64,000 nucleotides of DNA from Limnobaculum xujianqingii. Its GTDB lineage: Bacteria > Pseudomonadota > Gammaproteobacteria > Enterobacterales > Enterobacteriaceae. Of this stretch, positions 5,213 through 49,860 are shown in pieces; position 1 is the first letter of the stretch; every line of letters starts with the position of its first letter. A program made the position numbers and the translations under genes. The DNA is taken from contig NZ_JABMLK010000002.1 of NCBI RefSeq assembly GCF_013394855.1, positions 372,001 through 436,000 of the forward strand. Direction: 5' to 3'. The notes beneath the pieces are model-generated. The model ran no database searches and was not told the origin of the DNA. It saw nothing but the letters and a program-made list of their open reading frames with translations.

Positions 5213-5286
5213 ATTTGAACTAATGGATTCCAAGCCTTGAGTTTGTGGTCTTGGCTTTTTTTGGGGTGTTAGCAATGGTTATCAGA

Positions 5287-5457
5287 GGGAGAGGCCGCCG
5301 TGGGGGTCGACTTGGCGTAAGCCAACGAAGCGCCCCTAGGCGGACTAGGCCCGATGCACTCAGGGCTTATGTATTAATGGGTTACCGACCGAGCACAATG
5401 ATAATTTAGAGATACAGTTTTTACGGTCGGAATATCCATTAAGGCTGATTTGTTGGG
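5287..5457. repeat. Dispersed intergenic hairpin element, copy A
   Basis: This non-coding element lies between the convergent ends of ampD and aroP. It has two strong foldings. One is nested: CCGCC (5295-5299) and GGGG pair with CCCC and GGCGG (to 5343) around an inner TTGGC-GTAA-GCCAA hairpin (5312-5325). The other is a 7-bp stem CCGACCG/CGGTCGG (5385-5391 with 5424-5430). Read on the minus strand, it aligns with copy C at 33757: both show GGATATTCCG-CCGTAA, then GAGTGC between GCCC and GGGC arms, then CTAGGGGC. Copy B (23341-23452) shares the GGGAGAGGCCG start and the AGCTGAT-type end in the same orientation. Confidence 0.75.
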
Positions 5458-23309: not shown

Positions 23310-23340
23310 ACATAAAAAGTCTTTCAGAAAGCAAATCGTC

Positions 23341-23452
23341 GGGAGAGGCCGTCATACACCGTTGCTAAGTACAAATGATCTTCTGGTCGGGCACAATGCA
23401 TATATGCGTATGAAGTTATTACAGTCAGAATACCCGCTAAAGCTGATAAGAG
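23341..23452. repeat. Dispersed intergenic hairpin element, copy B (short form)
   Basis: This stretch between acnB and yacL shares both ends with copy A (5287-5457): GGGAGAGGCCG at the start, then GCACAATG...TTATTACAGTCAGAATA against A's GCACAATG...TTTTTACGGTCGGAATA, and AAAGCTGAT against AAGGCTGAT at the end. The central nested hairpin of copy A is missing, so it looks like an internally deleted copy. Its basal stem is weak (CTGGT with GTCAG, with wobbles). Confidence 0.6.
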
Positions 23453-32990: not shown

Positions 32991-33366
32991 GAAGAGGCTC
33001 CTGCCTTGTTATCGGAATAGGTTATATCCGCCTATTCTAAAAGAACTGAGGATAAATATCAGCTTTAGAATCTTTACCAGTCTTGTCAAAGGGTTTCAAT
33101 AGTTTGAGTATTATTGAAAAAAGGGAGGTAAAGGCAGGAAAAAATAAAGCGTAATTTGACGCATTTTGTTACCGGCGTTGGTGGTAAAATGAAGCAATCA
33201 GGCGTAGCTTACGGGCTATGTTTTTCTTATGCCTCTTGTTGATTTATTGTGGAATGAGGCGCGACTGCGTATAATACTTGAACGTTTTAGTCAACTATTA
33301 GATAATTATAAGATTATCAGACTCGCCCGTGTCGCGAGTCTGAACCAGATAAGCCGGAGACAATTG
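32991..33366. promoter_or_regulatory. hemL-erpA divergent promoter region with a hairpin in the erpA leader
   Basis: These 376 bp hold both promoters. The clearest feature is CAGACTCGC/GCGAGTCTG (33318-33326 with 33334-33342), a perfect 9-bp stem with a 7-nt loop ending 24 bp before the erpA ATG, so it lies in the erpA 5' leader. It could affect erpA translation. In E. coli erpA is controlled by IscR; I could not identify an IscR site with confidence. Confidence 0.5.
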
Positions 33367-33711
33367 ATGAGTGATTCAACTGCTTTGCCCCTCGAATTTA
33401 CCGATGCGGCAGCAAATAAAGTAAAGGCGCTGATTGCGGATGAAAGCAATCCTGAATTAAAACTGCGTGTTTATATTACCGGTGGTGGTTGTAGCGGCTT
33501 CCAGTATGGTTTCACCTTTGATGAAAAGGTTAACGACGGCGATATGATTATCGAGAAACAGGGTGTTTCTTTGGTTGTTGACCCAATGAGCCTGCAGTAT
33601 CTGGTTGGCGGTGCGGTTGATTATACTGAAGGTTTGGAAGGTTCTCGTTTTATTATTCAGAACCCAAATGCGAAGAGTACTTGTGGGTGTGGATCGTCGT
33701 TTAGTGTTTAA
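33367..33711 (+). CDS. erpA: Iron-sulfur cluster insertion protein ErpA
   Basis: ErpA is an A-type carrier that delivers Fe-S clusters to apoproteins, in E. coli essential for IspG/IspH in aerobic growth. From ATG 33367 ([20 protein letters not shown], after CCGGAGACAATTG) it is 114 residues, as in E. coli. The in-frame extension upstream to 33229 is not supported. The three conserved Cys are in [12 protein letters not shown] and the C-terminal [11 protein letters not shown]. It is followed by the large hairpin element, then convergent yadS. Confidence 0.98.
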
Positions 33712-33756
33712 GTTTTAGCATTGCGAATTTGCTGGTAAATGTTGTAAATCGGCATT

Positions 33757-33960
33757 TGAGGATATTCCGGCCGTAATGACTGTGTGCTTATATTTGTATT
33801 GAGTGCGGCCGGAAGACCATCTGTACTTGGGCCCGAGTGCGTTGGGCCTGGCCGGGCTAGGGGCAGTTATGAAACACCTGGTGGTGTTTCACCCTTCGGG
33901 CCAACGCAAGCGTTGTTCAAACAGGCTTTGCCTGTTTGTCCGGCAGCTAAAGCTGCTACG
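33757..33960 (+). repeat. Dispersed intergenic hairpin element, copy C (multi-hairpin)
   Basis: Between the convergent ends of erpA and yadS lies a string of hairpins. In order: CCGGCCG/CGGCCGG (33767-33773 with 33806-33812); GGCCC/GGGCC (33830-33834 with 33844-33848) with GAGTGC in the loop; GAAACACC/GGTGTTTC (33871-33890); CCC-TTC-GGG (33892-33900); CAACGC-AA-GCGTTG (33902-33915); AAACAGGC-TTT-GCCTGTTT (33919-33937); GCAGC-TAAA-GCTGC (33943-33956). The first two align with copy A (reverse orientation) and the later ones with copy D. Open frames crossing it are by-products of the palindromes. Confidence 0.8.
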
Positions 33961-34129
33961 ACCCCAACGCCCGACCCTCCCAACGATTGACTGTTTTAAG
34001 AAAAAATTTCAACTGCCAGACGTTGTTATCAATCTGGAATAACCTTTACCTGTTTTTTCTGGCTTAATCTAAGTCAATCCCTGAATTTTCGGACAATTAA
34101 CTCTTCAATTTTTTTACTGATTCTATTTC

Positions 34130-34744
34130 TTACTTTTCCAAACTAAACGTTGGGAGTTTCAGGCTCCAGCGGATGGCGGCCAGGCGGATGGTGAGGGTGA
34201 TGACCATGCCTATCATACCGGATTCTTCCAGGCCCAGATTGAAGTAATAGTGGGCGGTGGCGTGCACACAACCGCCGATAATACAGGCAGTGGCGTAGAC
34301 TTCGGTGCGTAGAATCATTGGGATTTCACGGGCCAGTACATCGCGGATGATACCGCCGCCAACGCCGGTTAATACACCCATGCAAGTTGCCACCAGTGGA
34401 CCGGTTCCGGCCAGAAAGGCTTTGTTAACGCCAATACCGACGAACACCGCGAGGCCGATGGCGTCCAGTACCGGTAAGATCCATTTTGGCAGGCTGCGGG
34501 GGTGGCGAACCAGCAGAATAGTGAACACACAGGTTACCAGTGCTACCACTAAATCGGTGGGGTCTTTAACCCAGAATACCGGGCCATTGGCTAATGCCAT
34601 ATCGCGGATAGTTCCACCGCCTACTGCTGTTACCACACCAAGTACTAAAACCCCAAATGGGTCCATGCGTAACTTTCCCGCTAACAGTACGCCAGAAATA
34701 GCAAAAACAGCAGTTCCAAGAATATCCAGCCAATAAACCAACAT
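34130..34744 (-). CDS. yadS: TRIC/UPF0126-family membrane protein YadS
   Basis: A 204-residue inner-membrane protein of the bacterial TRIC channel family. The two halves repeat each other: residues 1-90 contain VLVLGVVTAVGGGTIRDMAL, and residues 95-180 contain CMGVLTGVGGGIIRDVLARE. The GGGxIRD motif in each is the family hallmark, and about seven hydrophobic helices are visible. Bacterial TRIC homologues conduct K+; the role of YadS itself is not established. It is followed (same strand, 29 bp upstream) by btuF, as in E. coli. Confidence 0.92.
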   Translation of the reverse strand: MLVYWLDILGTAVFAISGVLLAGKLRMDPFGVLVLGVVTAVGGGTIRDMALANGPVFWVKDPTDLVVALVTCVFTILLVRHPRSLPKWILPVLDAIGLAVFVGIGVNKAFLAGTGPLVATCMGVLTGVGGGIIRDVLAREIPMILRTEVYATACIIGGCVHATAHYYFNLGLEESGMIGMVITLTIRLAAIRWSLKLPTFSLEK

Positions 34745-49570: not shown

Positions 49571-49860
49571 CCCGTAATAATGCAGTGTCTCATTTGACTA
49601 CAGTGCAACGGTCGAGCAAGGGGCGTTAAAAGGCGAACGCCCCCTGCACCCCCGCGCCTTCGCACCCGAATCCAGGTCGCTGGGCGCGACTCCCTTCCTC
49701 TTTCGTTCGGGTTTACGCACCGGCACTGATTCGGAGTACTCGCCTCATCCATGAGGCTCGGCCCTCTGGGCCAGCACGTTGTGCTGTTCAAAATTGCTCC
49801 TGCAATTTTGTCAGGCGAAGCAGTGCCTCGCCAAACATCCATGTTTGGCGTGCTACCCTC
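49571..49860 (+). repeat. Dispersed intergenic hairpin element, copy D (multi-hairpin)
   Basis: Between the convergent ends of garK and emrB. A left part (49571-49643) aligns with the start of copy C (CCGTAAT...GTGC, then A-GGGGC-GTT) and ends in GGGGCGTT/AACGCCCC (49620-49643). A right part has consecutive hairpins: GCCTCAT/ATGAGGC (49742-49757), GGCCC/GGGCC (49760-49772), AGCAC/GTGCT (49773-49785), AAAATTGC/GCAATTTT (49790-49809), AGGC/GCCT (49813-49828), CGCCAAACAT/ATGTTTGGCG (49829-49850). Linkers CCA, TGTTCAAA and TTTGTC match copy C while the stems differ in paired fashion. Confidence 0.8.

Follow-up and report, generated by a model that had tools for sequence, protein, structure and literature searches.

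The multi-hairpin element at the centre of this study, which we call copy C, is probably a nested mobile repeat, in which a cassette of the RrB type lies inside a miniature insertion element of the YPAL type. It is located in the window, the whole 64-kb stretch of DNA that was analyzed, between a plus-strand open reading frame (ORF; 33229-33711) and a minus-strand ORF ending at 34130, a position where two gene ends meet. A 160-aa ORF beside it presumably encodes an ErpA-like protein, a resemblance recognized by eye. A scan of 33600-34200 revealed neither a promoter nor a terminator pattern.

The fold of copy C begins with a hairpin, P1, and continues as a long branched hairpin in which the stacked stems P2, P3 and P4 enclose small hairpins (Table 1). 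The RNA fold of the plus strand has an energy of -102.9 kcal/mol, compared with -77.05 ± 5.02 kcal/mol for shuffled sequences (z = -5.15), and the DNA fold of the minus strand gives a z-score of -5.84; on each strand tested, copy C folds better than 200 of 200 shuffles. An earlier note on this DNA, made from the sequence letters, had described a multi-hairpin element at 33757..33960, a string of seven short hairpins. The hairpins are borne out, having beaten all shuffles, but the end at 33960 is too early, as 3' arms extend to 33985 and the core to 33993, and the image of a string alone has to be given up, since the long-range stems P2 to P4 enclose most of the hairpins.

Table 1. Features of copy C and related copies in the window. 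R1 is a covariance model built from 21 long copies of the outer repeat, copy C among them; R2 is a model of the inner module built from nine diverse copies, mostly with fixed loops.
Feature	Position	Strand	Remarks
Whole outer repeat, copy C (long form and AT-rich tails)	33725..34037	+	ends approximate, set by eye
Long-form core, copy C	33762..33993	+	R1, 245.8 bits
P1 stem, copy C	5' arm 33765..33773, 3' arm 33806-33814	+	
P2 long-range stem, copy C	5' arm 33840..33846, 3' arm 33979-33985	+	
P3 long-range stem, copy C	5' arm 33850..33857, 3' arm 33969-33976	+	
P4, copy C	5' arm 33860..33863, 3' arm 33962-33965	+	
Inner module, copy C (tRNA-linked-repeat / RrB type)	33870..33940	+	
P5 hairpin, copy C (part of outer repeat)	33941..33958	+	
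Copy A, short form without module	5275..5435	-	R1, 112.4 bits
Copy B, internal deletion	23329..23433	-	R1, 52.8 bits
Copy D, free inner module	49740..49812	+	R2, 77.3 bits; two GGA on - strand

The outer repeat is a high-copy repeat in its own genome. A DNA search returned at least 65 matches there (the best 40 of 149 candidates were scored), and the covariance search proposed in the earlier note returned at least 150 with R1 (1224 candidates; 148 over the whole model), far more than the four copies known before. One pair of R1 matches overlaps on opposite strands, and the R1 list is incomplete, because copy B is missing from it. The E-values of R1 and R2 are rough, and all copy numbers are lower bounds. 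Among the R1 matches listed, 24 are of a long form (230-236 nt) and 113 of a short form without the module (160-163 nt), the long form being the short form with a hairpin block inserted between P4 and P5. The earlier note had treated copies A to D as one element; A, B and C are indeed the same repeat, but copy D, which has a glycerate kinase ORF and an MFS ORF on either side, is the inner module alone, and grouping it with the others merges two different elements. R1 gave at least 55 matches per genome in three congeners and at most seven per genome in the other genera searched, with matches in 15 of 40 genomes overall. An exact pattern from the inner block occurred at 24 places in named genomes, all Limnobaculum allomyrinae. 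We considered and rejected a viral carrier: the outer repeat had zero matches in a phage collection (E 0.001), and one exact module pattern had zero matches in viral contigs.

By its ends and habits, the outer repeat appears to be of the YPAL type, while its interior is not that of a YPAL. In many copies, AT-rich tails extend the repeat, and the ends of these tails resemble those of Y. pestis RU-2, the sequence of which is printed with its ends in PMC2759123. Allowing up to 5 mismatches, an RU-2-like left end was found in 16 of 61 copies (40 short and 21 long) and in 2 of 420 control windows, a right end in 19 of 61 and 5 of 420, and both ends in 9 of the 61; the end sequences were picked after the copies had been seen, and the control windows come solely from the 21 loci with long flanks. 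Long flanking direct repeats (score >=12) accompany 9 of these 61 copies, compared with 0.28% of permuted flank pairs. The best of them measure 12 to 37 nt and often comprise a whole terminator-like palindrome; some may be pre-existing paired terminators. PMC2229807 describes YPAL targets as having dyad symmetry and their duplications as 3 to 26 bp long. By crude ORF calls, eight of the 21 long copies have a gene 3' end on both sides, and none has a 5' end on both sides. Among the loci examined, RU-2 matched only one (L242; E 0.05) and no Limnobaculum copy, so YPAL membership rests on ends and habits, and with an interior that RU-2 does not match we file the outer repeat as YPAL-type rather than as YPAL. 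We see it as a new subfamily within a known kind of element. Two side observations concern the YPAL elements themselves: YPAL/RU-2 has two hairpins with CATCC-type loops, like hairpin 1 of the module (sequence in PMC2759123), and enterobacterial plasmids also bear YPAL-type elements, with matches in 40 of 72,556 records (including L261).

The inner module can be assigned to the E. coli tRNA-linked-repeat / RrB family. R2 matches the K-12 rrnB T1-T2 spacer on the expected strand with 66.2 bits (E 2.4e-15) and the RtT repeats of the K-12 tyrT locus with 15.1 to 18.6 bits. The name tRNA-linked repeats refers to the rrnB-spacer and tyrT repeats, of which 22 are counted in E. coli (PMC8144298). As the 64-kb window contains no tRNA gene, its copies are relatives of the module and not tRNA-linked repeats themselves. 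In the own genome, R2 found at least 34 places (E 0.01), among them 25 in long repeats and 9 free modules, copy D included. Weak R1 matches in other genera are mostly the inner module alone, and R2 matches occur in 50 of 119 genomes at the family level and 110 of 274 in the gammaproteobacterial class (both E 1e-4), and in 72 of 398 across the phylum (E 1e-6), 34 of these 72 in other classes; the own genome is included in each count. Conservation of the RrB type is given for 31 species in 12 genera of Enterobacteriales in PMC8144298, and the spread of the module exceeds these genera.

The modules also show several local peculiarities. Two or three may stand in tandem with a period of about 73-75 nt (G403 C9:136127-136344 and C12:149017-149161; L208 and L238). 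One locus (L219, G175 C1:1262000-1279000) holds nine module matches within 17 kb, some of them within ORFs with Pfam SNF2/helicase and PglZ matches, possibly as in-frame read-through. Of 113 module matches, 41 lie inside mechanically called ORFs of at least 120 aa; Pfam matched two of six such ORFs submitted. The free modules of the own genome (L160-L166, 49740-49812) share a palindromic frame on the outside, about 100 nt long, that has extra CATCCNTG-loop type hairpins.

Modules were found beside tRNA, tmRNA and 5S genes, inside ERIC and inside a true YPAL. A tRNA or tmRNA gene lies within 110 nt in 10 of 29 class-level loci, and in 8 of these 10 its 3' end faces the module, which is on the opposite strand. 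At several loci, a copy of a tRNA 3' end has its T-loop split by the module at GATT^CGAA. Internal insertions of about 70 bp are known in ERICs, and in other Enterobacteriaceae genera we found ERIC split by modules between ERIC positions 30 and 42. In one genome (G394), a YPAL is split near its centre, at RU-2 79/82; its unsplit counterpart sits on a plasmid. The E. coli preT-yeiS site exists in three states: without ERIC (JJ1886, DH5alpha), with a 127-bp ERIC (14EC001, WP4-S18-ESBL-07), and with ERIC plus module (M217). Forty spread preT-yeiS rows comprised 2 of full length, 14 of the length of ERIC without the module, 23 of the length without ERIC, and 1 short match elsewhere, and an ERIC-plus-module query was covered to at least 80% in 631 of 5,426 E. 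coli genomes. Among four congeneric genomes compared at the window's own site, G001 and G003 lack the module, and the own genome (G000) and G002 have it.

The Limnobaculum repeat, ERIC, 5S and the tRNA copies all have the host bases TT^C at the junction. For base counts, 113 module matches were reduced to 106 by dropping repeated flanks and short ends; the loci used for loop and flank counts were chosen, mostly as best matches, and the counts describe good matches. The 5' flank of these 106 copies resembles TTRY (T in 82, T in 83, A in 72 or G in 28, C in 60 or T in 41), TT occurs within the last six bases before the module in 78, and the module ends in GTC in 87. In M217, the ERIC junction departs from a clean TT^C insertion, which counts against our best explanation. 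Insertion into palindrome loops was considered as a general rule and rejected; permutation supports it weakly, through stem (2.92 versus 2.71 ± 0.09) and folding energy (-17.55 versus -16.38 ± 0.21).

The stems covary strongly, including the long-range stems that the earlier note had missed. Its specific examples are confirmed: copies C and D keep their linkers while the stems change on both arms, and the first stem of copy C differs from that of copy A by a paired G-C to A-T change. Its general claim, that there is selection on DNA or RNA structure, is strongly supported as structural constraint by covariation against shuffled and slid controls. In 40 short copies, with a structure drawn by the analyst, 96.8% of cells pair and 141 cells carry changes in both partners; the structure reaches a covariation score of 0.291, compared with 0.112 after shuffling (0 of 500) and no more than 0.079 when partners are slid, and the number of further pair types shows no excess over shuffles (24 versus 26.4). 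The module alignment, 83 distinct rows drawn from 101 matches across many genera, is fitted to, and hence leans towards, the structure; here 93.8% of cells pair, and the score is 0.558, compared with 0.143 shuffled (0 of 500) and at most 0.077 slid. As a separate observation from by-eye reading (alignment columns 101 and 134-136), the P4 base that precedes GGG, which is G, C or T, seems tied to an opposite CCCCAA, CCCCCA or CCCAAA, in a correlation other than ordinary base pairing.

The kinds of mismatch tolerated in the module point to the level at which its structure is kept. G-U and A-C cells number 22 and 14 in the module (10 and 13 without the outer and loop-closing pairs), whereas in the acceptor and T stems of tRNAs at the same loci (30 distinct tRNAs) they number 20 and 0. 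There is thus no sign of selection on RNA pairing in the module, and the lack of a G-U excess indicates that the structure is kept, or copied, at the DNA level, where it looks to be maintained. This bears on the proposal that the elements are RNA genes or mRNA elements selected for RNA structure and spread by descent and recombination. We regard it as unlikely in the face of these pair counts, of identical sites with and without the module, and of nesting in unrelated repeats, even though E. coli transcribes and processes RrB (PMC8144298) and AaHKsRNA22 (Rfam RF02902) aligns end to end with the reverse strand of the module, with 24.9 bits, which is less than its gathering score of 39.8.

Complementarity might instead have arisen by arm-to-arm copying (template switching) together with gene conversion between copies, and not by selection. 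The scarcity of intermediate pairs agrees with such copying, as do the P3 stems, which fall into a handful of whole-stem types common to several copies; at the window ortholog, P3 differs between G000 and G002 and is the same in G002 and G003. Copying leaves the fixed loops and linkers across many families unexplained, however, and we consider it a doubtful account of the pairing. That the stems vary yet stay complementary while loops and linkers are fixed suggests to us an actor that recognizes the linkers and the loops of the hairpins, and most likely does so in DNA.

Among the fixed features are the loops of two module hairpins. On the reverse strand, a GGA loop is present in hairpin 1 of 94 and hairpin 3 of 96 of the 106 distinct copies (both in 93), compared with 2 of 106 for hairpin 2, and a C-G pair near the hairpin 1 loop is invariant in the 83 module rows. 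At tRNA-facing loci, the GGA strand is co-oriented with the tRNA. Hairpin loops of the NGGA type are the kind of site that CsrA prefers (SELEX consensus). CsrA is reported to bind E. coli RrB via GGA motifs, including two in loops (KD about 100 nM), and RrB deletion and overexpression are described as having modest phenotypes only (PMC8144298). With the structure kept or copied at the DNA level, a role through CsrA would follow in those copies that are transcribed; binding has been shown for E. coli RrB only, and copies elsewhere may have an effect through CsrA. The minus strand of copy C has no GGA, and this copy, its GGA loops lost, is probably inert for CsrA. More broadly, the module could be a mobile cassette across Pseudomonadota that carries ready-made putative CsrA sites and repeatedly wires new genes to CsrA: insertion into stable-RNA operons would place the sites on growth-rate-controlled transcripts, and ERIC or YPAL-type carriers would bring them to gene 3' ends. 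We put this forward as a tentative idea.

The same loops could also be contacts for an enzyme. If the elements are selfish DNA, an IS200/IS605-like or RAYT-like enzyme would recognize their hairpins and make its contacts at the fixed loops, and the resemblance to CsrA sites would be coincidental. Module pairing without G-U excess and the strong preference for 5' TTRY and 3' GTC agree with this reading, and the TTRY flank recalls the TTAC target of IS608. The own genome also has two Y1_Tnp (IS200/IS605, RAYT-like) matches, one with an internal stop, which counts against it, as does the binding of CsrA by E. coli RrB through loop GGA motifs (PMC8144298). Overall, we hold a purely selfish element to be a real but less probable possibility. 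The two Y1_Tnp matches lie at C1:2842015-2842377 and C1:2706901-2707260. Our searches found no mobilizing enzyme.

We therefore prefer a nested mobile repeat as the explanation of copy C and envisage its origin as follows. The outer YPAL-type element would have settled just downstream of the ORF at 33229-33711, where two genes end. The second element, a hairpin cassette of about 75 nt, would have come to sit at the foot of the apical hairpin P5 of the outer repeat. Such cassettes may enter at or next to TT^C in unrelated hosts, namely a T-loop copy of a tRNA, a 5S helix, ERIC and YPAL-type repeats, presumably moving as DNA with the help of a mobilizing enzyme. Where transcription of a neighboring gene runs into the reverse strand of a cassette, the RNA would contain two NGGA-loop hairpins and should bind CsrA.

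The core of this account links tRNA-linked repeats, ERIC-borne modules and YPAL, which have been described separately, into one nested system. No printed link among the three was found in the literature searched; other papers may exist. The RNA between the rrnB terminators, which many expression plasmids carry (PMC8144298), becomes a member of a dispersed family found in 110 of the 274 gammaproteobacterial genomes sampled. Growth of the CsrA network through insertion of small hairpin cassettes can now be tested, and filled and empty E. coli sites are supplied for working out the insertion reaction.

Comparison with known systems sharpens these assignments. The earlier note had recognized no named family, which holds for ERIC and Rfam and fails for the YPAL/RU-2-like outer repeat and the RrB-family module. 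The comparisons it had suggested gave no match of E. coli ERIC to copies C and D, a chance-level 11-nt match on copy A, and nothing from Rfam in the window at gathering score. ERIC, a 127-bp high-copy intergenic repeat of enterobacteria, is similar in kind, and some ERICs carry the module; the window copies lack ERIC sequence, and ERIC identity was rejected, as the 127-bp consensus with TATA ends was not found. Membership in AaHKsRNA22 was likewise rejected on its score, and that family is named as a single Aggregatibacter sRNA, unlike the dispersed module. HEARO, group II introns, attC and hammerhead were considered and checked via Rfam alone, with nothing at gathering score. REP/BIME and the CGTC/GTAG-tagged palindromes share the character of small dispersed DNA hairpins of unsettled function. 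They are single palindromes of 20-40 bp (PMC3733652), whereas the repeat measures 161-232 nt and the module about 71-75 nt, with several hairpins each; we rejected REP/BIME on length and hairpin number, the GTAG/CGTC tags being judged by eye. The outer repeat resembles YPAL/RU-2 in its end sequences, variable-length target duplications, dyad-symmetry targets and intergenic sites at gene 3' ends, and differs from the 168-nt Y. pestis RU-2 in its unrelated interior and in occurring as two forms, which measure about 161 and 232 nt when the tails are left out. The module, in turn, resembles E. coli RrA/RrB/RrF and RtT in its match to the sequence and fold of RrB, in its strand relation to the tRNA at many loci and in the duplication of the tRNA 3' end at several; unlike the E. 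coli tRNA-linked repeats, it also occurs inside ERIC, inside YPAL-type repeats and free in intergenic DNA.
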